64,000 bases of DNA from Antedon bifida (taxonomy: Eukaryota; Echinodermata; Crinoidea; Comatulida; Antedonidae): the NCBI GenBank assembly GCA_963402885.1, contig OY727095.1, forward strand, positions 35,345,001 to 35,409,000, read 5' to 3'. Positions 2,437 through 58,778 of the stretch are shown here, piece by piece (the first letter of the stretch is position 1; each line of letters begins with the position of its first letter). The translations under genes and the position numbers were made by a program. The notes under the pieces are model-generated. The model did not search any database, was not told the origin of the DNA, and saw only the letters and a list, made by a program, of their open reading frames with translations.

Positions 2437-3840
2437 TAGTTGAATATCAATATTATTATCATTATTGTTAATGGTCATACAAAGCATTCTACTGAGCGGC
2501 TGATAGTTGAATATCAATATTATTATCATTATTGTTAATGGTCATACAAAGCATTCTACTGAGCGGCTGATAGTTGAATATCAATATTATTATCATTATT
2601 GTTAATGGTCATACAAAGCATTCTACTGAGCGGCTGATAGTTGAATATCAATATTATTATCATTATTGTTAATGGTCATACAAAGCATTCTACTGAGCGG
2701 CTGTTAGTTGAATATCAATATTATTATCATTATTGTTAATGGTCATACAGAGCATTCTACTGAGCGACTGTTAGTTGAATATCAATATTATTATCATTAT
2801 TGTTAATGGTCATACAGAGCATTCTACTGAGCGACTGTTAGTTGAATATCAATATTATTATCATTATTGTTAATGGTCATAAAAGCATTCTACTGAGCGA
2901 CTGTTAGTTGAATATCAATATTATTATCATTATTGTTAATGGCCATACAAAGCATTCTACTGAGCGACTGTTAGTTGAATATCAATATTATTATCATTAT
3001 TGTTAATGGTCATACAAAGCATTCTACTGAGCGGCTGATAGTTGAATATCAATATTATTATCATTATTGTTAATGGTCATACAAAGCATTCTACTGAGCG
3101 GCTGATAGTTGAATATCAATATTATTATCATTATTGTTAATGGTCATACAAAGCATTCTACTGAGCGGCTGATAGTTGAATATCAATATTATTATCATTA
3201 TTGTTAATGGTCATACAAAGCATTCTACTGAGCGGCTGTTAGTTGAATATCAATATTATTATCATTATTGTTAATGGTCATACAGAGCATTCTACTGAGC
3301 GACTGTTAGTTGAATATCAATATTATTATCATTATTGTTAATGGTCATAAAAGCATTCTACTGAGCGACTGTTAGTTGAATATCAATATTATTATCATTA
3401 TTGTTAATGGTCATAAAAGCATTCTACTGAGCGACTGTTAGTTGAATATCAATATTATTATCATTATTGTTAATGGCCATACAAAGCATTCTACTGAGCG
3501 ACTGTTAGTTGAATATCAATATTATTATCATTATTGTTAATGGTCATACAAAGCATTCTACTGAGCGGCTGATAGTTGAATATCAATATTATTATCATTA
3601 TTGTTAATGGTCATACAAAGCATTCTACTGAGCGACTGTTAGTTGAATATCAATATTATTATCATTATTGTTAATGGTTATACAAAGCATTCTACTGAGC
3701 GGCTGTTAGTTGAATATCAATATTATTATCATTATTGTTAATGGTCATACAAAGCATTCTACTGAGCGGCTGTTAGTTGAATATCAATATTATTATCATT
3801 ATTGTTAATGGTCATACAAAGCATTCGACTGAGCGGCTGT
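2437..3840. repeat. 67-bp satellite, 21 units with an 8-unit higher-order pattern
   Basis: Twenty-one head-to-tail units of 67 bp fill 1404 bp; three units are 1 bp short. Each unit starts TAGTTGAATATCAATATT and ends with a variable GAGCG(G/A)CTG(A/T). Four diagnostic variants (CGGCTGA, CGGCTGT, CAGAGC and the 1-bp deletion, GGCCAT) occur in nearly the same order in units 1-8 and 9-16, giving a higher-order period of about 535 bp. Confidence 0.95.
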
Positions 3841-5797
3841 TAGTTATGGAATTAATATAAATAATTTCGTTTCGGTGGAGATGTCGTGATTCAACAACCT
3901 GGAAATCCACATTGGGCCAATCTAACACGTTTTATTTATTTACGTAATATTCCATTAAGGTTAGGCTTATTATTGAAGGATAGAAACGTTTCAGTATTCA
4001 TGCTGTCATGTTCAATGTTTGTGTTATGTAATTTTTGAATTAATAATTATATCCTAATAAAAAAAACTCAGAGGGAGTGTTCTACTTTAGTCGAAATGTA
4101 AAATGTTATTCTCAGTGTAGACGTTTGAATTTAAACATCATCATTTATATTAATACCCTGAAATTATAAAATCATCATGTATCAGAAACATGTAATAATT
4201 CATCATAGTTATAATTAATGATTATGGAAATCATTTATATATCCTATTTGCCTTCTCAGAACTGGGATTCGTGCCAAATGGAACAAATAATTGTGTTTTA
4301 TTTACGTTTAGTATGCTGCTATTGTTACACAAACTGGAATCGATGACTTATAATATATAGCCTAGCTGGTTCTTTTTAAATTGTGGTGAATATTAAATCG
4401 TAAGGATAACAATATGATATGGATGGATGGATTTATTGAAACGGTGGTGCGTGGACCTATATAAAAGATCGTCGATGTTCTAATCTATGGTAAGTTATAA
4501 CGGCACCGTGTTCTGAGTTACTACGGTGTGTTGACATACATGAGGCCTATCGTTTATGAAGATTGATATCTATACCTAGTCGGTGTTTGTGAAGATTGAT
4601 ACCTATACCTAGTCGGTGTTTGTACAAATCTCAGGTGAGTATTTTAGCTGCTACGTAACTAATTGGGCCTATATGTGTTAATACACTACTTATTTAGAGT
4701 AGCCTACTAATTACACGTCCTATAGTCGGCACTGGGGCGGGGGGGGGGGGGGGGTACGACATCGTAAAACTGAGTTATATAGGCTTATCTGTCTGTTGTT
4801 ATGTTGCTTTTGAGCATTACGAAAATAGCAACAACAAGGTTCCATTGTAAATTAATTAAAATTGTGGATGTTGAAAAAAGCTTAATCCTGTGTAATCAAT
4901 ATTCAGAGAACGGCTTCCTGAACTATTTAAAAAAAAATAAAGACTCAATTTGATTAAATCAGATCTTATATATTGTGACAGGTTTACCATGAAGTATTGA
5001 CTCAGTTTCTTGCTGGAACATAAATACAGAAGCAGAGTGAGTTATTTAATTTCATCTATGGGTTAAGGGCGTGTCGATTTGATGACGTACTAATGGTTTA
5101 TGCTATACAGAAGTATTACTTCATATCCGACCGATATGGCAGTCAGAGAATTGTTGAAGAAATTAATGATATCTTTACGCTAATTGAAAGCTGGTTTGTG
5201 CAATTTTCGGGAACATTTCGAATTTTGTTTAATATTATCAATATTTTAAATGAAGTTGGCAAACTTGTAAACCCATGATTATTTTTTCATCTGTGGTAAA
5301 ATAATAATATTAGCATAATAACAACTCATTGAATTCAACTTCATAATCACGGTGCAAAGTGAATTCTATGGCCATTATTAACGACCTTTAACCATTCTTT
5401 TCACTGTTTATATCTGAGTTGTATTACTTTTTGTTTGCTGTTAAAGCCTTAGATACAATCTTTTGAAAAGCAGCAACTTTTATAATGATGTAGCATTCCA
5501 ATACCATATGCATTCTTGAGTAAAGCACACGCGAACACAAAGAATAGCGTAATAATTTAGTAACATCAATGGTGGGGACGTGGGGAGATAAGAACATTTA
5601 TTATCAGTACAATGTAAATTTGTAAACATGGACACAAACCAATGATTATGTTCAAATGAATATTAAATGTAAATAATATTGCGGCATAGCAAGCGGGTTA
5701 TATTGATTATATTTTATATACTTATTATTTATATTCTCGACGTTTCTTTCTCTTTATTGCATCATGTTTTAAAAACTATATTGTGATTGTTCCAAAG
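3841..5797. other. Non-coding stretch upstream of the receptor gene
   Basis: No supported ORF. It holds a 33-bp tandem duplication (about 4558-4623, unit GAAGATTGATATCTATACCT onward) and a 16-G run at 4739-4754. A good donor context (CAG/GTGAGT) at about 4634 could end a 5'UTR exon of the receptor; this is a guess. Confidence 0.5.
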
Positions 5798-27000: not shown

Positions 27001-28471
27001 TTCTCTATCAATCCACTAATTATTGTTTCCAATAATAATTTCAATATCTGTAGGTAATTGAGGATAGAGTGAGCAAGAAAACCTTGGAGAAGCTAAAGGC
27101 CAGTATCAATGAAATGATTAATGATGAAAACATGGCAACAGTTGAAAAAGATGAGGAACAAATTGATGTAGATCACACAAATGTTGAGAAGAGCTCAGAA
27201 GAATTTGATCAGCAGATGAGCAGCCAAGATGTTATGGATGTTCCCTTGGTTGATGACAATTTAACATCTTTGAATGAAACAATTTGTCCTGAAGATAGCA
27301 TTTCTTCTAAGACCATGGAAGTGTGAGTATAATGATTAAGTAATTGAATAACACGTTGTTGAAACATGCTAAAGCAATGTGTCTTTGGAGATGAAAAGTG
27401 GTGAGTGCATGTGCAACACCCTCTACTGCTGTACAATGTAATTTAAGTGTTTGTTACTCATTTTTATTGGGTAGAACAAAATACTTGCACATTGGCACGT
27501 TCTATATTTTATCATATTCATCATCCAATAAATTATTATTGTGATGAAATTATACTAATTTTGATATGCAATTTCTATTGATAGTGATGATGAAAATAAA
27601 GACCCAGTCCTAGTAGTAAAGAGGTCATCACGTAGGAAGAAATCCACTAAACAGTCTGTAAAGAAGAAAGCTATTCCAGTCTGTCATTTGTATTCAGATT
27701 CAGAGAGTGATGGAGAAGATTTAAGTCGGTGAGTAATCCACCCTGCAGCTTGGCACATATGATGGATTCTTTTTCTATTATACATCCTCCTCCAATTAAT
27801 GACCCTTTTCTCCAAATAATGACCCATACACAAATTAAAGATCCAACCATGTTCCTTTAAATTACATACTCTCCCCTGTTCTTGCTGAAGTTGTTAATGC
27901 TCTTGCTGCAGTTGTTAATGCTCTTGCTGCAGTTGTTAATGCTCTTGCGGCAGTTGTTATTGCTCTTGCTGCAGTTGTTACTGTTCTTGCTGCAGTTGTT
28001 AATGCTCTTGCTGCAGTTGTTATTGCTCTTGCTGCAGTTGTTATTGCTCTTGCTGCAGTTGTTAATGCTCTTGCTGCAGTTGTTATTGCTCTTGCTGCAG
28101 TTGTTATTGCTCTTGCTGCAGTTGTTAATGCTCTTGCTGCAGTTGTTAATGCTCTTGCTGCAGTTGTTAATGCTCTTGCTGCAGTTGTTATTGCTCTTGC
28201 TGCAGTTGTTATTGCTCTTGCTGCAGTTGTTAATGCTCTTGCTGCAGTTGTTAATGCTCTTGCTGCAGTTGTTAATGCTCTTGCTGCAGTTGTTAATGCT
28301 CTTGCTGCAGTTGTTAATGCTCTTGCTGCAGTTGTTAATGCTCTTGCTGCAGTTGTTACAGTTCTTGCTGCAGTTTTTATTAATAAAAACATTGTATTTT
28401 TTTTTTGCAGATTGAAATTATCACGCAAAGTGACTGCCTTGAGTGAATTAAATCTTAGTGACAGTGAATAA
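21032..28471 (+). CDS. NCAPG: Condensin complex subunit CAP-G, 1035 aa
   Basis: Nineteen exons with fully consistent phases: 21032-21142, 21714-21938, 22026-22254, 22534-22679, 22797-22881, 23156-23348, 23543-23692, 23871-23999, 24204-24420, 24533-24706, 24853-24960, 25046-25165, 25413-25637, 25904-26085, 26196-26364, 26634-26804, 27054-27322, 27585-27728, 28411-28471. Length is close to vertebrate NCAPG (about 1015 aa). HEAT-type helices are clear, such as HHNVRDRAVRFRVCQLINK, PAVRIQAVTALARLQDP and HDAVHEVRRAVLSCIAPS, as is the C-terminal condensin domain (RDVAVRCLGLACQMNRDFA). Acidic insertions occur after residue ~90 and in the exon at 25413; the last exons are acidic/basic and disordered (KRSSRRKKS). 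Within condensin I this subunit pairs with the kleisin CAP-H and binds DNA during mitotic chromosome compaction. An acceptor at 21006 indicates a non-coding upstream exon. Confidence 0.95.
25237..25365. mobile_element. MITE with TTAA flanks, CAP-G intron 12
   Basis: The ends are TTAA-AGCTCTGTCTACACTATC and, inverted, GATAGTGTAGACAAAGC-TTAA. Terminal inverted repeats of about 25 bp and TTAA flanks point to piggyBac-type mobilisation. A shorter sister copy is in the next intron. Confidence 0.85.
25674..25756. mobile_element. Short MITE with TTAA flanks, CAP-G intron 13
   Basis: Same termini as the copy at 25237-25365 but only 83 bp long; the middle is deleted, leaving nearly a pure hairpin. 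TTAA at both ends. Confidence 0.85.
27880..28375. repeat. 21-bp minisatellite in the last CAP-G intron
   Basis: About 23-24 copies of GCTCTTGCTGCAGTTGTTAA(T). The unit is a multiple of three without stops, so both strands stay open, but nothing supports translation. The array ends about 35 bp before the acceptor of the terminal exon. Confidence 0.95.
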
Positions 28472-36669: not shown

Positions 36670-37614
36670 ATGAATGATTCAAGTCAATATCAGTCTTATA
36701 ACTCCAGTTATGTGTCGTACTCATACTGGAGTTGGGAGGAGGACACGAATTATTTTGTTGATGGTTTATATTTGCTGATAATCATACTTGGAATTATTGC
36801 TTTCTTAGGGAGTGCATTTACTCTAATTGTTGCCTTAACTACGAAGAAGATCCGAAAGAAACGTAGCAATTACCTGATAATGAACCTAGGAGTTCAAGAT
36901 AGTGTTATGGGTTTCACAGTCGCAACCCTCTACTTGATTATTTATACATCAAACTACAGCGATATTAACGTGTTTTTGTTAACATTTTGTTCACTAACTT
37001 ACACGGGTCTTTTAGTATCAACATTACTGGCAATTTTAATGATTGCCATTGAACGATGTTTCGCCATAATTGCACCATTTCACCATCGCATATACGTTAC
37101 AAAAACCACCTTATCAATCGCAATCTTTTTAGACTGGGCCGTATTTGGGGGAATGTACATATTCCTCAATTACTATAAAGGCTCTCGGTTAACGGTGACA
37201 ATATTGAATTTATGCATTATATTTATAGATGTAGTTCTATACTTGGTAATATTTGTGTATGTTAAATGTCATTCAGCAAAAATTCAACGTTTTTCTAGCA
37301 TATCTCTTAAAAAGAAGACAAAACAGGATATCAAAATGATCACTACATTCGCTCTATTAGTTGGAATCCTAGTAGTGTGTTGTATCCCATTTTGGGTAGT
37401 TGATGTTTTTGTGACGATTAACCCGTCAAAAACAGTAAACGACGCATTTCTAATAGCAACAGTGTTTATTCCACTGAATTCGGCGGTGAATATATTTGTG
37501 TATTGGTGGCGTATACCGGAGTTCAGAGGGGCCTACAAGCGGATATTATGCGTCAGAAAAGAAATCGCACGGACAAACACGAATGTGTACGTTGTGAGCT
37601 CCACTGTATTATAG
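36670..37614 (+). CDS. Rhodopsin-type G-protein-coupled receptor, 314 aa
   Basis: Single-exon ORF with seven hydrophobic helices at about residues 31-57, 71-95, 103-131, 146-165, 176-199, 226-252 and 261-285. Hallmarks are changed but present: IERCFAI replaces DRY at the end of helix 3, CCIPFW replaces CWxP in helix 6, and NSAVNIFVYW replaces NPxxY in helix 7. A cysteine is at the top of helix 3 but extracellular loop 2 has none, so the usual disulphide is missing. The N-terminus holds NDSS and NSS glycosylation sites, which is why the ATG at 36670 is preferred to 36604. Ligand unknown; it resembles invertebrate-expanded orphan receptors. The last ~37 codons are duplicated just downstream. 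Confidence 0.85.
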   Translation: MNDSSQYQSYNSSYVSYSYWSWEEDTNYFVDGLYLLIIILGIIAFLGSAFTLIVALTTKKIRKKRSNYLIMNLGVQDSVMGFTVATLYLIIYTSNYSDINVFLLTFCSLTYTGLLVSTLLAILMIAIERCFAIIAPFHHRIYVTKTTLSIAIFLDWAVFGGMYIFLNYYKGSRLTVTILNLCIIFIDVVLYLVIFVYVKCHSAKIQRFSSISLKKKTKQDIKMITTFALLVGILVVCCIPFWVVDVFVTINPSKTVNDAFLIATVFIPLNSAVNIFVYWWRIPEFRGAYKRILCVRKEIARTNTNVYVVSSTVL

Positions 37615-37830
37615 TCGTATTATTTATTTATTTTCCGTCATATTCAACAGCGGTAAACATATTGCGTAGGTGGTGTATACCGGAGTTCAGAGGGGCCTAC
37701 AAGCGGATATTATGCGTCAGAAAAGAAATCGCACGGACGAACACGAATGTGTACGTTGTGAGCTCCACTGTATTGTAGTCGTATTATTTATTTATTTTCC
37801 GTCACATCCAACAGCGGGAAACGCGCCACT
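37503..37830. repeat. 164-bp tandem duplication of the GPCR C-terminal tail
   Basis: The segment encoding IPEFRGAYKRILCVRKEIAR through the stop, plus about 50 bp of 3'UTR, recurs at an offset of 164 bp (second copy about 37667-37830) with few differences. Upstream bases of each unit (helix 7 end) are more diverged. A third unit is truncated near 37800. Confidence 0.9.
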
Positions 37831-44511: not shown

Positions 44512-47500
44512 TTAATGTGCATTAGGTGAGAAATTAGCGTCAAATGAATCGTTACAATCCAAAATACACCCATCTTCCATCAGTATGACAGCAATCCGAG
44601 CAATATTTCTTGCATCCGATATTCCTCTATGAGGGCGTCCTTCAAAAGTAAGTTCATGTGCAGTCAGCATATTTTTTAGACTCATTCGAGGTAAATGATA
44701 AAAATTGCTCATAGCTTTACAAATGTTCACCCATTTTCTGCAAAATTTAGGAAATGGAACTTGACTGAGATGGCATTGCACGTTCAGAAACAGATTCATA
44801 TCCCATGGCCTGAAAAAATAAAAGGTTATATATATTCAGGAATTTGTTACAGTATAGATGCATTAAAACGGTAAATTATTTTTGTGCTTTTTACATTTTC
44901 TGTTCAGTGCTTAGATGTGCCCTGCATTTTTATGCTTTAGAAATTGACCATTATTATTATTTCCATTTTAATGTAGCATTACATACCCATCACATGCTAC
45001 TGCAAATGTATAGTAGGTTCCTAGTCCCTTAGAGTCCATCCATTTACAAACTTTTTTCCATACATCTGGAAACAACTCTGCACTATCAACCATACTCTAA
45101 AATTCATACAAATTAATTGATGATTGTTAGATGATGACAATTAGATGTTTTTGCCCTACTCTGACGTAATTTGTACTTTATACTAAGTACATTTGAGAAT
45201 ACTTGCGAAAAAATTCGCAAGTAGTTCTCGGGTGGGACTCGAACCCACGACCTCCAGATCACTAGCCTGGCGTTCATACCTTCAGACCACCGAGAAAATT
45301 TACTTAATATAAAGTACAAATTACGTCAGAGTAGGGCAAAAACATCTAATTACTCAACTCCCTGACGCAAAAACTACAATTACAATCCTAGATGATGATA
45401 AATACAATAATGTGAATGATAGGTGGTTAGTGTGGAGAGCTGAGGCCACCACATACCTACCTGTGTAATACTTGTGAGATCTGTACAAAATTGATAGGTG
45501 GTTGTGGAGAGCTGAGGCCACCACATACCTACCTGTGTAATACTTGTGAGATCTGTACAAAACTGATAGGTGGTTGTGCAGAGCTGAGGCCACCACATAC
45601 CTACCTGTGTAATACTTGTGAGATCTGTACAAAATTGATAGGTGGTTGTGGAGAGCTGAGGCCACCACATACCTACCTGTGTAATACTTGTGAGATCTGT
45701 ACAAAACTGATAGGTGGTTGTGCAGAGCTGAGGCCACCACATACCTACCTGTGTAATACTTGTGAGATCTGTACAAAATTGATAGGTGGTTCTGGAGAGC
45801 TGAGGCCACCACATACCTACCTGTGTAATACTTGTGAGATCTGTACAAAATTGATAGGTGGTTCTGGAGAGCTGAGGCCACCACATACCTACCTGTGTAA
45901 TACTTGTGAGATCTGTACAAAATTGATAGGTGGTTGTGCAGAGCTGAGGCCACCACATACCTACCTGTGTAATACTTGTGAGATCTGTACAAAATTGATA
46001 GGTGGTTGTGGAGAGCTGAGGCCACCACATACCTACCTGTGTAATACTTGTGAGATCTGTACAAAATTGATAGGTGGTTCTGAAGAGCTGAGGCCACCAC
46101 ATACCTACCTGTGTAATACTTGTGAGATCTGTACAAAATTTGGTTAATTTTGGATTAAATGTAGGACGGCAAAATGCTTGGAATTCATCTTCCTGAAAAA
46201 TCAAATATCATTGAAAAATAATTATGAGTGTACATACCAAAAATGAAATTGTTTTTGTCTATCGTATATAGTTATTTAGAAATAAAAATTATTAGACTTT
46301 TTTTTATGTTGATAGTAGTAATAGTATTCGCTTACGAGCGACACCAGCTAACGTTTTTTTTTTTGTTCAGCTTAATGTAAGATACAGTATAATAATAATA
46401 ATACTGTATGTTTGAAATGTTTTTATCTCTTTACCAATATTAAGTGGTATTGCTGTTTAGCACCTAGACTATTGAGAGACCTGAACTACATCAAGCAATT
46501 ACATACAAATGGATAGTGTTTACAATGAGTTAATGCAACATTGTTCAATAGTTTTGTTTTTGCAAGACCCTTTTACACAAAACATAAACATTATATATAC
46601 ACAATTTAGTGTTGCTCATTGAGTGATAAATAGTATTTTTAATTCGTTTTTACTTTTTAATTTTGAGAATTGGTTCAAATCTACTAGATTGGACTTAGTT
46701 CCAATGTACATCATTCACTACTAATTTACACATGAACTTACAACTTCAAGAGTGCTTGTGTTAATCAACACAATGGGAAACTCAATTATTTCAGGAACAA
46801 AATCTGGTGGTTCTGGTTCTTCGCATGTTGCTTCATAATCTATCACTAGTAAATAGTCAAATTGTTGATGCATCGATTGGAAGCCTGTCTCTGCTGCAAG
46901 CAGTCGTTGTTTATAGTAAGATTTCAGTCTAGACTTTAATATATCAATTCTCCCTCTAAAGAAAGATAAAAATACCATTTGTTTGCAAAAAATCTTGCTG
47001 AAAAAAATCTAGAATGATATATGACAATGCACACAAATATTAAAGGGGAGTTTAAGGGAAAAGGTTAAGGTTAATTTGAAGGGGGACAAATTGAAGGTTA
47101 CAGTAGAAAGGGGTAAAAATTTATTTTGGGGTGGAAAAGTTTGTCGGAGTACCCACTGACCTACACAACTTACCGAGTGTTCAGCTTTAAAGTACCAAGC
47201 TTTGCTTTAACTTCACTAGAATTCAGTTTGTTTATTTCACCATTTTTACGAGAAATTTGTTTGAATACCGGATGACTTTTATCTATCTATAAATAAAACA
47301 GACAATTGTATACTACTAGGTGTAGGTAGGAAGCAGGTGAAATATGAATATTAGTATTACAGTACAGTACTATTATTATTAATAAATGAGATATTAAATA
47401 TGTCACATGTGCATGATTTTTTGTTGACTTGAATGTTTTTGTCTCTTCTTCTCGTTATGATACTGTATATACTGTCATCATCAGTACCTTATTAATATTA

Positions 47501-47748: not shown

Positions 47749-47876
47749 TCTTGAAACAATAAACAACCCAAACAGAAACACAACTGTTAATACAACATAA
47801 AGCAGAATGATTTGCATAGTATAAATGAACACGTCATTATTGTAAATATAGGCAATGAATCGCTGCTCTCTGCCTT

Positions 47877-50162
47877 GGCACTTGCTGCTGCTGCTGCTTC
47901 TCTCTCCTCCTCCTTTTGTGTTAATCTCTCCTGGCTCTCTTCCGCCCTCTAGAAAACAAAGAATCGATCGAATATCTAGAATGAGCAAACCTGCTTTATA
48001 CCGTACCTCCATGGTAAATCACGTTAAATTCTATTTTGATGTTAGTTTACTGCCGAATAGACAGTCAACTACCGGGAGTCTACGGGTTGTGTTTTTACGA
48101 ATAATGATAGTGTATACTAATTAACATTTCAATGTTCTAAGTAGAAAAGATAAATATTAATTAAATTTGACATTGTAGTCTTTCAAGTTATATCATAAAT
48201 CATTACTTGAATTACTGGGCGTTGATTAGTACACGACAAAATGGAAAAGAATATTCCTGCTGGGTAACGCATGGTTGATTTTGTTAAACAAATTTAGCAT
48301 GTTTGTAAAATATTTTATTAAATATTTTCTATGAAATGTTAGTTGCCTTATATTATTTCGATGGGATACTCTCTCCACCCCCACTCCCCGGCCGTGAATT
48401 TTGCCACATTTTGTGGATGCGCTCCCATGGAGGTATAATACCTCAATGCGCTACCGATTTAATTATTTATTTCTCACAATACAATACACATAACATTTTT
48501 ATACCTCCATGCAATACAAAACTAGTTTTTTATTTAATGGAAAAAGCAAAGTTATTTTTGTTATTTATATTTTAATTTAAAAAAAAGAACAACAAATTGA
48601 GATCAGATGGCTAGCTACTAAAGGCATAAATGGTGCTCCATAGAAGTAGAGAATGCTCGATCGTCGAAATGACGCTCTGAATATACCTCAAGTTTCGGGG
48701 TAGGTGGTGTTTTTTTATCAACAGTCCCCTCTATCTATTATCGAGAGTTTAGGAGTGCAGTGTGTGAGTCACAAGAGTGGTGGCTATGTAAGGGGAATCC
48801 CCTTTCCCTTGAGAAAAAAAATAAGAAAATTATGACCGCAGCCCAGATGGTCATACAATGGCATACATACAATATACAATGTATAAGCCTTTTTGTTTAT
48901 TTTAATGCAGATGACCACACATATACAGTACATAAAAATTCAGTTATCTTTGTATTCTGGGAGAAAATGTAGAAACCGGGAGACCAGTCGAATAGAATTA
49001 CTGGAGTGTTTGTATGTTTTGGCACTTGCTGCTGCTGCTGCTTCTCTCCTCCTCCTTTTGTGTTAATCTCTCCTGGCTCTCTTCCGCCCTCTAGAAAACA
49101 AAGAATCGATCGAATATCTAGAATGAGCAAACCTGCTTTATACCGTACCTCCATGGTAAATCACGTTAAATTCTATTTTGATGTTAGTTTACTGCCGAAT
49201 AGACAGTCAACTACCGGGAGTCTACGGGTTGTGTTTTTACGAATAATGATAGTGTATACTAATTAACATTTCAATGTTCTAAGTAGAAAAGATAAATATT
49301 AATTAAATTTGACATTGTAGTCTTTCAAGTTATATCATAAATCATTACTTGAATTACTGGGCGTTGATTAGTACACGACAAAATGGAAAAGAATATTCCT
49401 GCTGGGTAACGCATGGTTGATTTTGTTAAACAAATTTAGCATGTTTGTAAAATATTTTATTAAATATTTTCTATGAAATGTTAGTTGCCTTATATTATTT
49501 CGATGGGATACTCTCTCCACCCCCACTCCCCGGCCGTGAATTTTGCCACATTTTGTGGATGCGCTCCCATGGAGGTATAATACCTCAATGCGCTACCGAT
49601 TTAATTATTTATTTCTCACAATACAATACACATAACATTTTTATACCTCCATGCAATACAAAACTACTTTTTTATTTAATGGAAAAAGCAAAGTTATTTT
49701 TGTTATTTATATTTTAATTTAAAAAAAAGAACAACAAATTGAGATCAGATGGCTAGCTACTAAAGGCATAAATGGTGCTCCATAGAAGTAGAGAATGCTC
49801 GATCGTCAAAATGACGCTCTGAATATACCTCAAGTTTCGGGGTAGGTGGTGTTTTTTTATCAACAGTCCCCTCTATCTATTATCGAGAGTTTAGGAGTGC
49901 AGTGTGTGAGTCACAAGAGTGGTGGCTATGTAAGGGGAATCCCCTTTCCCTTGAGAAAAAAAATAAGAAAATTATGACCGCAGCCCAGATGGTCATACAA
50001 TGGCATACATACAATATATAATGTATAAGCCTTTTTGTTTATTTTAATGCAGATGACCACACATATACAGTACATAAAAATTCAGTTATCTTTGTATTCT
50101 GGGAGAAAATGTAGAAACCGGGAGACCAGTCGAATAGAATTACTGGAGTGTTTGTATGTTTT
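47877..50162. repeat. Recent 1.14-kb tandem duplication at the ERI1 5' end
   Basis: 47877-49020 (1144 bp) and 49021-50162 (1142 bp) are direct copies. I noted only about three or four substitutions and a 2-bp CT indel after the GCTGCTGCTGCT tract. The proximal copy holds the upstream extension of the ERI1 first exon frame; the 2-bp indel shifts this frame in the distal copy. Confidence 0.93.
48636..48715. repeat. Solo terminal segment of the 57-59 kb element
   Basis: AAGGCATAAATGGTGCTCCA and the following AGTAGAGAATGCTCGATCGTC...GACGCTCTGAATATACCTC match 59368-59440. Copied again at about 49778-49857 inside the tandem duplication. Confidence 0.75.
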
Positions 50163-55347: not shown

Positions 55348-57068
55348 TTAGTCTTTATGTATGAGTTTTAGCTTAAAAGACAATTGTGTAATTGCATCAG
55401 TAGCTTGAGAATCAATATTCACAAGTCTAATTTCTTTCACATGTTCAAATTTATCGTCATCTACAAAACTGTTGATGGAATCAATTAATGCTTTAGCACA
55501 TTCCATCTTTTGTCCACCAAATATACCAGAACTGATCAAAGGAATTGCAATAGACTTTGCTTTGAGCTTTTCATCTGCATAAGAAAGACAATTGAAGAAT
55601 GTTTTCTTTAACTGCGACTGAAACTGATCATTTCTGCCCTGTATTGGTCCGACAGCATGTATCACAAACTTTGCATCCAGTTTATAACCTTTAGTATGTA
55701 ATACTTCTGATACTCCTAATGTACGTCCTCGTTCTTGTAGTCTTTCTTCTCCTTCAATATCAATTTCTGGACCAGCTTTTACAGCAATGGCTCTTGCAAC
55801 ACCTCCCCCATGCATAAGTCTGCCATTAGCTGCATTCACGATAACATCAACAGTTTCAAGGGTAATGTTAGCTTTTTTTATAATCACATTGATACCACGT
55901 TTCATTTCCAAATTTTTGTCTTGCTCCTCACTTTTGGAACCTGTAGGTCCTTGGATAGGTGCTTGGATTTCCTTGTCACCGCTGGCCAGTTCACTGTTCT
56001 CTTCAGGTTGATTGTTGGGTGGGATTGCACATGTATTTGGCAATGAAGTTTCAGCTATAGGTGCTTGGATTTCATTGTCACCGCTGGCCGGTTCACTGTT
56101 CTCTTCAGGTTGATTGTTGGGTGGGATTGCGCATGTATTTGGCAATGAAGTTTCAGCTATAGGTGCTTGGATTTCATTGTCACCGCTGGCCGGTTCACTG
56201 TTCTCTTCAGGTTGATTGTGATCAGGTGAGACCGGACTTATACTTGAAGCATCTATAGTTTTTGAATCACTATTCTTTCCACCATCTGACATTTTATTTT
56301 GTATGTGTTTCCATACAGTTATTGTTAGTACCAACCCTAATGCGCCTGTAACAACAATATTTTTATATTCTGCAAGATAAAAACACATAACAGTATATTC
56401 AAAATGACATTTGTTTTGGTTGCAGGACTAAATTTTGCATGCAGGGGGTAGTTTCTGAATTAAATTAATTTAATAATTACAAGTTATTTTTCTCCTGATC
56501 TTTCTATTAATTAATAATTAGGCCTAGGCCTAATGACATTTATAAATTGTGTGTAAAACGATCAAAATTTGACTAGCTTGGCCCAAAAGATTTACTAGCA
56601 TAATATAAGGCCAGGCCTGGGGACTAGATAGGCTAGAGGCTAAGGGGCCTAGCTAGTATAATTTTATTAGTAGGCGTAATAGTTAATTAGCAGGCTGGTA
56701 TTATTAATTTTAGTAAGGTAGCACGTTTTAGGCCTAGGCCTAGCTAGTTATGTCTATCTAGGCCTAGCCTAACTAGCTAGCCTAGTACTAGGCCTAGTAG
56801 GCTAGGCATAATAGGTTTACTCTAGGCCTAGCCTAGCCTAGGCCCGGGCCTAGCTAGGCCTAGGCCTATCTCCTTATCTTCTCTAGCCTATCTATAGATA
56901 AGAATTTACAATAGTCCTACTACTATTAGGCCTACGCCCCTATATAACACAATTGGCGCCATACAATTATCAATTATGATTGAGTTAGAGGGTAAAACTA
57001 AACTATTAGTATTTAATTTTACCTTTAAACCATTCTGACCACCACGTAATATTTAAACTATTCAGCAT
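55348..57068 (-). CDS. Membrane-anchored macrodomain protein, 355 aa
   Basis: Two exons: 57023-57068 (15 codons plus 1 nt) and 55348-56369. The N-terminus has a likely transmembrane helix (NIVVTGALGLVLTITVW) at residues ~18-34. Residues ~60-160 contain three tandem 34-residue repeats beginning NQPEENSEPASGDNEIQAPI; the third diverges. The C-terminal ~190 residues are a macrodomain: KANITLETVDVIVNAANG, then RLMHGGGVARAI, FVIHAVGP and IPLISSGIFGG. The NAANG, GGGVA and SSGIFGG loops line the ADP-ribose pocket. It could bind or remove ADP-ribose; style is nearer to PARP9/14-type macrodomains than MACROD hydrolases by eye. The tandem repeats are near-identical at DNA level (102 bp), so they are recent. 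Confidence 0.8.
55970..56217. repeat. 102-bp in-frame coding tandem repeat
   Basis: The segment coding the 34-residue acidic/Pro repeat is present about 2.5 times; the first two units are nearly identical (GCGCATG versus GCACATG). Confidence 0.85.
56519..56900. promoter_or_regulatory. Dense AGGCCTAG-motif cluster in the macrodomain gene intron
   Basis: TAGGCCTAGGCCTAGC and half-sites (CTAGCCTAGG, AGGCCTAG) recur more than a dozen times between the first and second exons. It is a simple-sequence-like palindromic field; regulatory meaning is unproven. Confidence 0.5.
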
Positions 57069-58436: not shown

Positions 58437-58677
58437 TGTGTTCTCCCTGCCTCAGCACTAAGGCCCTGCCACAGCCTTTTGGGGTCGTTTCCAGCACATC
58501 ACCAGATGAATTGATGTTGTCGCCTCATGATGTGTGGTGGAAAGGGGGACGTATAATCTGTGAACCCCAAACACAGTGGTCGCATACCTTTAACTCAATT
58601 CCACCGACCAGCGTGGGAATTGAACCCACGACATACGTGTTGTCAATACGACGCTCAGGCGACTGAGCTAACTGGTC
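58437..58677 (-). mobile_element. tRNA-derived SINE, second family
   Basis: The head, 58605-58677 on the - strand, is tRNA-like: acceptor GACCAGT/GCTGGTC, D arm GCTC-AGTCGCCT-GAGC, T arm GTGGG-TTCAATT-CCCAC. The anticodon stem is poor; the loop TTGACAA would read GAC. The body continues on the - strand as GTGTTTGGGGTTCACAG and ends near AGGGAGAACAC. Unlike the family at 886 and 41904. Possibly also a tRNA gene with an unrelated flank. Confidence 0.6.
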
Positions 58678-58778
58678 ATTTTGGTTTTAACAAGGTTAAT
58701 AAGATGTTTATGACGTAATGATGAATTACGTAATACATGTATAAATAGACTATTATCAGCTGTTCAGACATGTACTAC

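Follow-up and report, generated by a model that had tools for sequence, protein, structure and literature searches.

The 64,000-nt stretch of Antedon bifida contig OY727095.1 analysed here (positions 35,345,001 to 35,409,000 of the forward strand; hereafter the window) carries, on its minus strand, a gene that is clearly an orthologue of ERI1 by sequence, in which the boundary between exon 4 and intron 4 has been copied into a minisatellite of ten 72-bp units. Tandem repeats lying over exon-intron boundaries have been named 'mirages' in amphioxus (in passages of PMC3087553), and the ERI1 array is structurally a mirage, a new case of an already known repeat class. With a probability of about 0.72, we read it as a mirage of the amphioxus type that is most likely near-neutral, splicing taking place at the first donor and the array being removed as intron; within this reading we infer the choice of donor, the neutrality and the mechanism of expansion.

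The exonuclease part of ERI1 occupies 44.5-47.3 kb of the minus strand (window coordinates throughout; a slash marks a splice junction):

46742..46955, minus strand: ERI1 exon 3, end of the SAP region and first exonuclease motif, IDYEATCE (alignment to human ERI1)
46109..46192, minus strand: ERI1 exon 4, 84 nt, EDEFQAFCRP...FCTDLTSITQ, phase 0-0 (gapless against human ERI1 across the ITQ/SMVD junction)
45097..46108, minus strand: ERI1 intron 4, 1012 nt with donor 1 (scripted join)
44987..45096, minus strand: ERI1 exon 5, SMVDSAELF...ACD, the following Gly codon interrupted by the junction (human ERI1 alignment and scripted join)
44512..44809, minus strand: ERI1 exon 6, with PWDM (Exo II Asp), GRPHRGISD (His/Asp) and the stop codon at its end (human ERI1 alignment and scripted join)

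Exons 3-6, joined first by eye and afterwards by script, encode 234 residues up to the stop at 44512. A 191-residue by-eye join matched human ERI1 (1w0h) with an E value of 3.2e-69, against 7.8e-36 for ERI3 and 2.9e-29 for ERI2, which bears out the host gene proposed in the first-pass annotation of this DNA; Pfam returned RNase_T at 1.3e-25. The IDYEAT, DGPWDM and GRPHRGISD segments are all in the spliced product, as are the residues D, E, D, H and D that we take to be catalytic, and the splice from donor 1 to 45096 leaves no gap against human ERI1 over the junction. Introns 3-5 measure 549, 1012 and 177 nt. Upstream of exon 3 lies exon 2, which ends ...CTGAACACTCG/GTAAGT and presumably carries the first half of the SAP region, from its resemblance to the human protein; given its location, the number 4 that the same annotation gave to the copied exon is right if the N terminus lies in one further exon.

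The array and its donors are placed as follows:

45417..46140, minus strand: minisatellite, 10 units of 72 bp, each with exon 4 end, donor and intron start
46103..46111, minus strand: donor 1, CAG/GTAGGT, GT at 46108, predicted to give the protein of conserved length
45455..46039, minus strand: donors 2-10, the same 9-mer at 72-nt intervals, GT 46036 to 45460, each predicted to add 24 residues in frame

Tandem Repeats Finder (TRF) describes a period of 72, 10.0 copies, 97% matches and a score of 1358. In every unit, the 30-32 nt that close ERI1 exon 4 (FCTDLTSITQ) are followed by the donor CAG/GTAGGT and about 40 nt of intron, and the donor CAGGTAGGT recurs in 10/10 units on the minus strand, with GTs in 72-nt steps at 46108, 46036, 45964, 45892, 45820, 45748, 45676, 45604, 45532 and 45460. 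An origin at the exon 4/intron 4 boundary and ten identical donors, one per 72-bp unit, had been proposed at first pass, and both parts of the boundary are indeed in each of the ten units; the array was also where it had been placed (45418..46192), save that 46141-46192 is single-copy exon 4, outside an array that ends at about 46140. Only 3 of the 72 columns vary among units 1-9, and those units are identical around the donor, from -30 to +25; unit 10 has a 3-nt insertion. The same variants are common to units 6-7 and units 8-9, a pattern that suggests something like recent block duplication. By eye, the flanks share only about one base at the ends of the duplication.

The boundary itself appears to be older than its copies. 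A genome search with the ERI1 peptide gave at least six matches, four of them in the ERI1 gene and two in paralogues (L013 and L014). In L013, for which 'ERI2-like' is a label of our own, an exon ends ...ACCCAG/GTAAAC and coding resumes ...AATAG/GATATGGTAGAA, reading ITQ/DMVE; with splice sites judged by eye, this intron shares its codon and phase 0 with that at ITQ/SMVD in ERI1. Given this match in L013, intron 4 most likely predates the array, and the repeat would have copied an old boundary.

Within the material examined, the arrangement is confined to this locus. Three AGGTANGT at 48-78-nt spacing match 16 times in the window, always within the array, and 0 times in 100 shuffles. The window holds 36 equally spaced donor triples, at spacings of 72, 144 and 216, and none occurs in L013, in L014, in the end of the window's contig (L025) or in a small background sample of ten 10-kb stretches, these being the ones, of 20 chosen, whose contigs were long enough. 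Minisatellites as such are present in that sample (7 TRF rows, some overlapping, with a period of at least 15 and at least 5 copies, in 3/10 stretches); a donor expression stands in the consensus of 0/7 of these rows, compared with 1/4 in the window. Used as a query against the 315.6-Mb assembly, in a search that scored the best candidates only and skipped very common words, the unit was matched ten times, always at the ERI1 locus. A TTAGGG tract (L025, 5900-7996; 340 exact copies counted, 348 by TRF) closes the contig, which would put the array about 51 kb from the chromosome end; the window as a whole lies 33-97 kb from the telomere-tract end of the contig.

Our reading leans on the amphioxus precedent. 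There, according to passages of PMC3087553, mirage units measure 10-72 bp in Adh3 and 150-160 bp in the globins BflGb6 and BflGb9, many copies contain AG/GT, the number of BflGb6 units differs between two haplotypes, and Adh3 data together with globin reverse-transcription PCR suggest regular splicing despite the mirages. Parts of PMC3902484 likewise say that the Adh and TnC mirages generate no aberrant mRNAs, and describe imperfect repeats over splice sites of PGBD5 as similar to mirages. As far as these passages go, the size range of Adh3 units includes the 72 bp of ERI1, and copies bear splice signals there just as the donor is found in 10/10 units here; the ERI1 array differs in its ten identical in-frame donors, in the gene affected and in its echinoderm rather than lancelet host, and is known from one haplotype of genomic DNA alone. 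The name has been applied in cephalochordates, and the host here is not one, COX1 on contig C27 reading by NCBI table 9, the echinoderm and flatworm code (AAA Asn, AGG Ser, ATA Ile, TGA Trp, at Asn, Ser and Ile positions that we take to be conserved). On L026, COX1 adjoins COX2 on one strand, with an NAD1-like frame on the other (by eye), and this COX2 presumably resembles that of echinoderms. A search for GH6, bearing on a tunicate host, gave 0 matches, as did its controls, and is therefore uninformative. Among the papers listed in a literature search, judged by titles and the starts of abstracts and with few subscription journals covered, none concerned an array of this kind in ERI1 or in any echinoderm, which does not imply absence; passages of PMC12783039 and PMC2206037 hold nothing on boundary repeats.

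A plausible course of events would begin with a tandem duplication that had almost no end homology and captured about 30 nt of exon 4 along with the donor and some 40 nt of intron 4. The increase to ten nearly identical units may then have come from unequal exchange or from slippage during replication, an expansion perhaps aided by a hairpin of the intron half in some of them. Most transcripts would join donor 1 (46108) to 45096 and encode an ERI1 of conserved length, with the nine other units leaving in the intron; such normal splicing is most likely, judging by the precedent and by the conserved length.

What the copies could do to the protein depends on how they would be used. Joined by script to exon 5, each of donors 1-10 leaves the frame open to the normal stop (10/10), and the predicted products, counted from exon 3 onward, run from 234 to 450 residues, all ten with the three catalytic segments; the extension, in steps of 24 residues, falls after the residue aligned with human 194 (Gln194 in 1zbu numbering). 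With all ten donors in frame, inclusion of units would therefore lengthen ERI1 rather than truncate it. Retention of the full intron 4 brings a stop after 341 codons of the reading, with loss of the Exo II Asp and everything beyond, and a single 20-nt micro-exon (units 2, 3 and 10 tried) shifts the frame to a stop after 130 codons, while three, six or nine of them keep it; of everything tried, the protein ends before the His/Asp solely with full intron retention and with the single frame-shifting micro-exon. The first-pass annotation had expected retention to truncate the protein at that point, which holds for the full intron and fails for included units, since all ten donors reach the normal stop; its 20-nt micro-exon does not work as a clean alternative exon, given the frame shift. 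It was right that a frame stays open through all units and wrong to see a single one, since 3/6 frames run open through almost all of the array. Furthermore, 92/172 of the window's GTANGT sites read open for 14 codons, so that an open frame is expected by chance about half the time and is no sign of selection; on this count we rejected it as evidence of function.

It is nonetheless conceivable, if unlikely, that splicing draws on several of the ten donors and yields a ladder of ERI1 proteins, each 24 residues (VGMWWPQL..TTYQFCTDLTSITQ) longer than the last; the added blocks would lie in the exonuclease domain, with the first motif before them and the Exo II Asp after. Competition for U1 would be expected among identical donors, and all ten keep the frame open to the normal stop and retain IDYEAT, DGPWDM and GRPHRGISD. 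The human IFI6 gene (6-16, G1P3) offers a precedent in a minisatellite of short unit, reportedly the subject of Turri et al. 1995. Its downstream repeat units are reported by a citing paper to serve as donors, yielding three mRNA species (PMC4526556); passages of PMC2915984 and PMC3618361 do no more than cite Turri 1995 for effects on splicing. Like the ERI1 array, that minisatellite offers multiple donor sites at an exon end, and a ladder in ERI1 would amount to an IFI6-like case in a conserved nuclease; downstream donor use is reported there, whereas donors 2-10 of ERI1 are predicted from sequence. Against such a ladder stand the chance expectation of an open frame, an insertion point at which the length of the domain is conserved with human, and the regular splicing reported for amphioxus mirages whose repeats contain AG/GT (passages of PMC3087553 and PMC3902484). 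For the splice-based length switch suggested at first pass, the two precedents point in opposite ways, the amphioxus repeats to undisturbed splicing and IFI6 to the use of repeat donors. Doubtful to a further degree is a bolder version, in which the minisatellite would be germline-variable and set the length of ERI1, its competing identical donors giving up to ten in-frame proteins in 24-residue steps whose mix would depend on the number of units and on the donor taken by U1.

Other explanations fare considerably worse. That the units act as micro-exons of about 20 nt, or as truncating retained sequence, as the first-pass annotation had it, in a splice-based off switch, strikes us as very improbable. 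The acceptor-like TTTTGTACAG/A that it pointed to is present in 10/10 units, each time before the 20-nt stretch that leads to the donor, and full intron 4 retention does stop before the Exo II Asp; but the 'acceptor' of unit 1 is plain exon 4 coding sequence (FCTD), the T tract comes to four bases with no clear branch site seen in the unit by eye, the introns implied would be 52 nt (by eye) against the 549, 1012 and 177 nt of introns 3-5, and the frame survives only micro-exons in threes. We see a similarly slim, if anything slimmer, chance of an assembly artefact in the form of a wrong number of units or a mis-assembled repeat, near-identical 72-bp units being hard to assemble at the right copy number; yet the units are told apart by variants that follow an order, and the array sits within gene sequence on a chromosome-scale contig. 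Least credible is that the array created intron 4 by tandem duplication of an AGGT site, as in Rogers-type models of intron gain. The unit has the CAG/GT and possible acceptor that such a model requires, and of the two paralogues, L014 reads LTGITQSMVDGQPTFQE unbroken, with no intron at ITQ/; gain of this kind needs an intron at a novel position, however, and L013 shares the position in codon and phase.

Several points weigh against our preferred reading of a near-neutral mirage spliced at donor 1, among them the intronless L014 and the donor use reported for IFI6. In passages of PMC2812944, on internal tandem repeats of human segmental duplications, 66% of the intron modifications have a transcript retaining the repeat; expansion of a boundary repeat can alter exon-intron structure there, a likeness to the ERI1 array, although those cases concern recent human paralogues and novel introns, whereas the intron of the conserved gene considered here is most likely old. 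The unit is 72 bp long, a multiple of 3 that has a one-in-three chance under neutrality. Donor 1 has no distinctive local sequence, units 1-9 agreeing at every position from -30 to +25. Predicted local folding does not favour it either: in local folds the donor 9-mer is unpaired with a probability of 0.0013 at donor 1 and 0.0007-0.0056 at the others, in a global fold the mean unpairedness of donor 1 is the highest, barely, at 0.237 versus 0.176-0.231, and unit 1 forms the weakest hairpin (-11.8 versus -14.3 to -18.7 kcal/mol). Within single units, GGUAGGU is predicted to pair with ACCACCUAU of the same unit; the unit-2-type hairpin, which we counted in favour of the preferred reading, is predicted at -18 kcal/mol, a value that 9/200 shuffles equalled or bettered. 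Exon 4 and the array together fold with a z of -2.76 (20 shuffles), and z is 0.58, -2.02, -0.02 and -0.17 for four single units and -0.06 and -2.01 for two 52-nt pieces, the single-unit values suggesting that one unit type alone stands out. Overall, these predictions do not settle which donor is in use.

The intron that holds the array, ERI1 intron 4, contains two further features:

45224-45296, minus strand: tRNA-Thr(AGT)-like gene, Rfam 46.7 bits
45139..45351, minus strand: 56-nt inverted repeats, 96% complementary, flanking the tRNA-Thr(AGT)-like gene (from sequence)

Together they look like a tRNA-bearing foldback element. Elsewhere, a tRNA-Val(GAC) gene lies at 58604-58678 on the minus strand, and a near-identical tandem duplication with a spacing of about 1142 bp is found upstream of ERI1 exon 2, at approximately 47875-50160, its extent judged from paired frames. 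Two more duplications involve reading frames of the window: a 164-bp tandem duplication of 1.9 copies at 37505-37822 takes in the 3' end of a frame like that of a G-protein-coupled receptor (family by eye), including its last codons, and a 102-bp repeat of 2.6 copies at 55955-56219 stays in frame (34 residues) within a macrodomain-like frame (domain by eye). We counted this pair in favour of the mirage reading. The window also has a 67-bp minisatellite of 21.1 copies and 98% matches (TRF) at 2437-3845 and a 21-bp minisatellite of 23.8 copies at 27880-28379, open in four listed frames.

The ERI1 array extends a repeat class described in lancelets to an echinoderm and to a conserved nuclease gene. 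Moreover, it amounts to a natural test of splice-site choice, in which ten like donors stand at different positions and the use of each would be reported by an in-frame 72-nt step. Should donor 1 alone be used, this would make a strong case for choice based on position; should more donors be used, the array would give a series of protein lengths controlled by a repeat.
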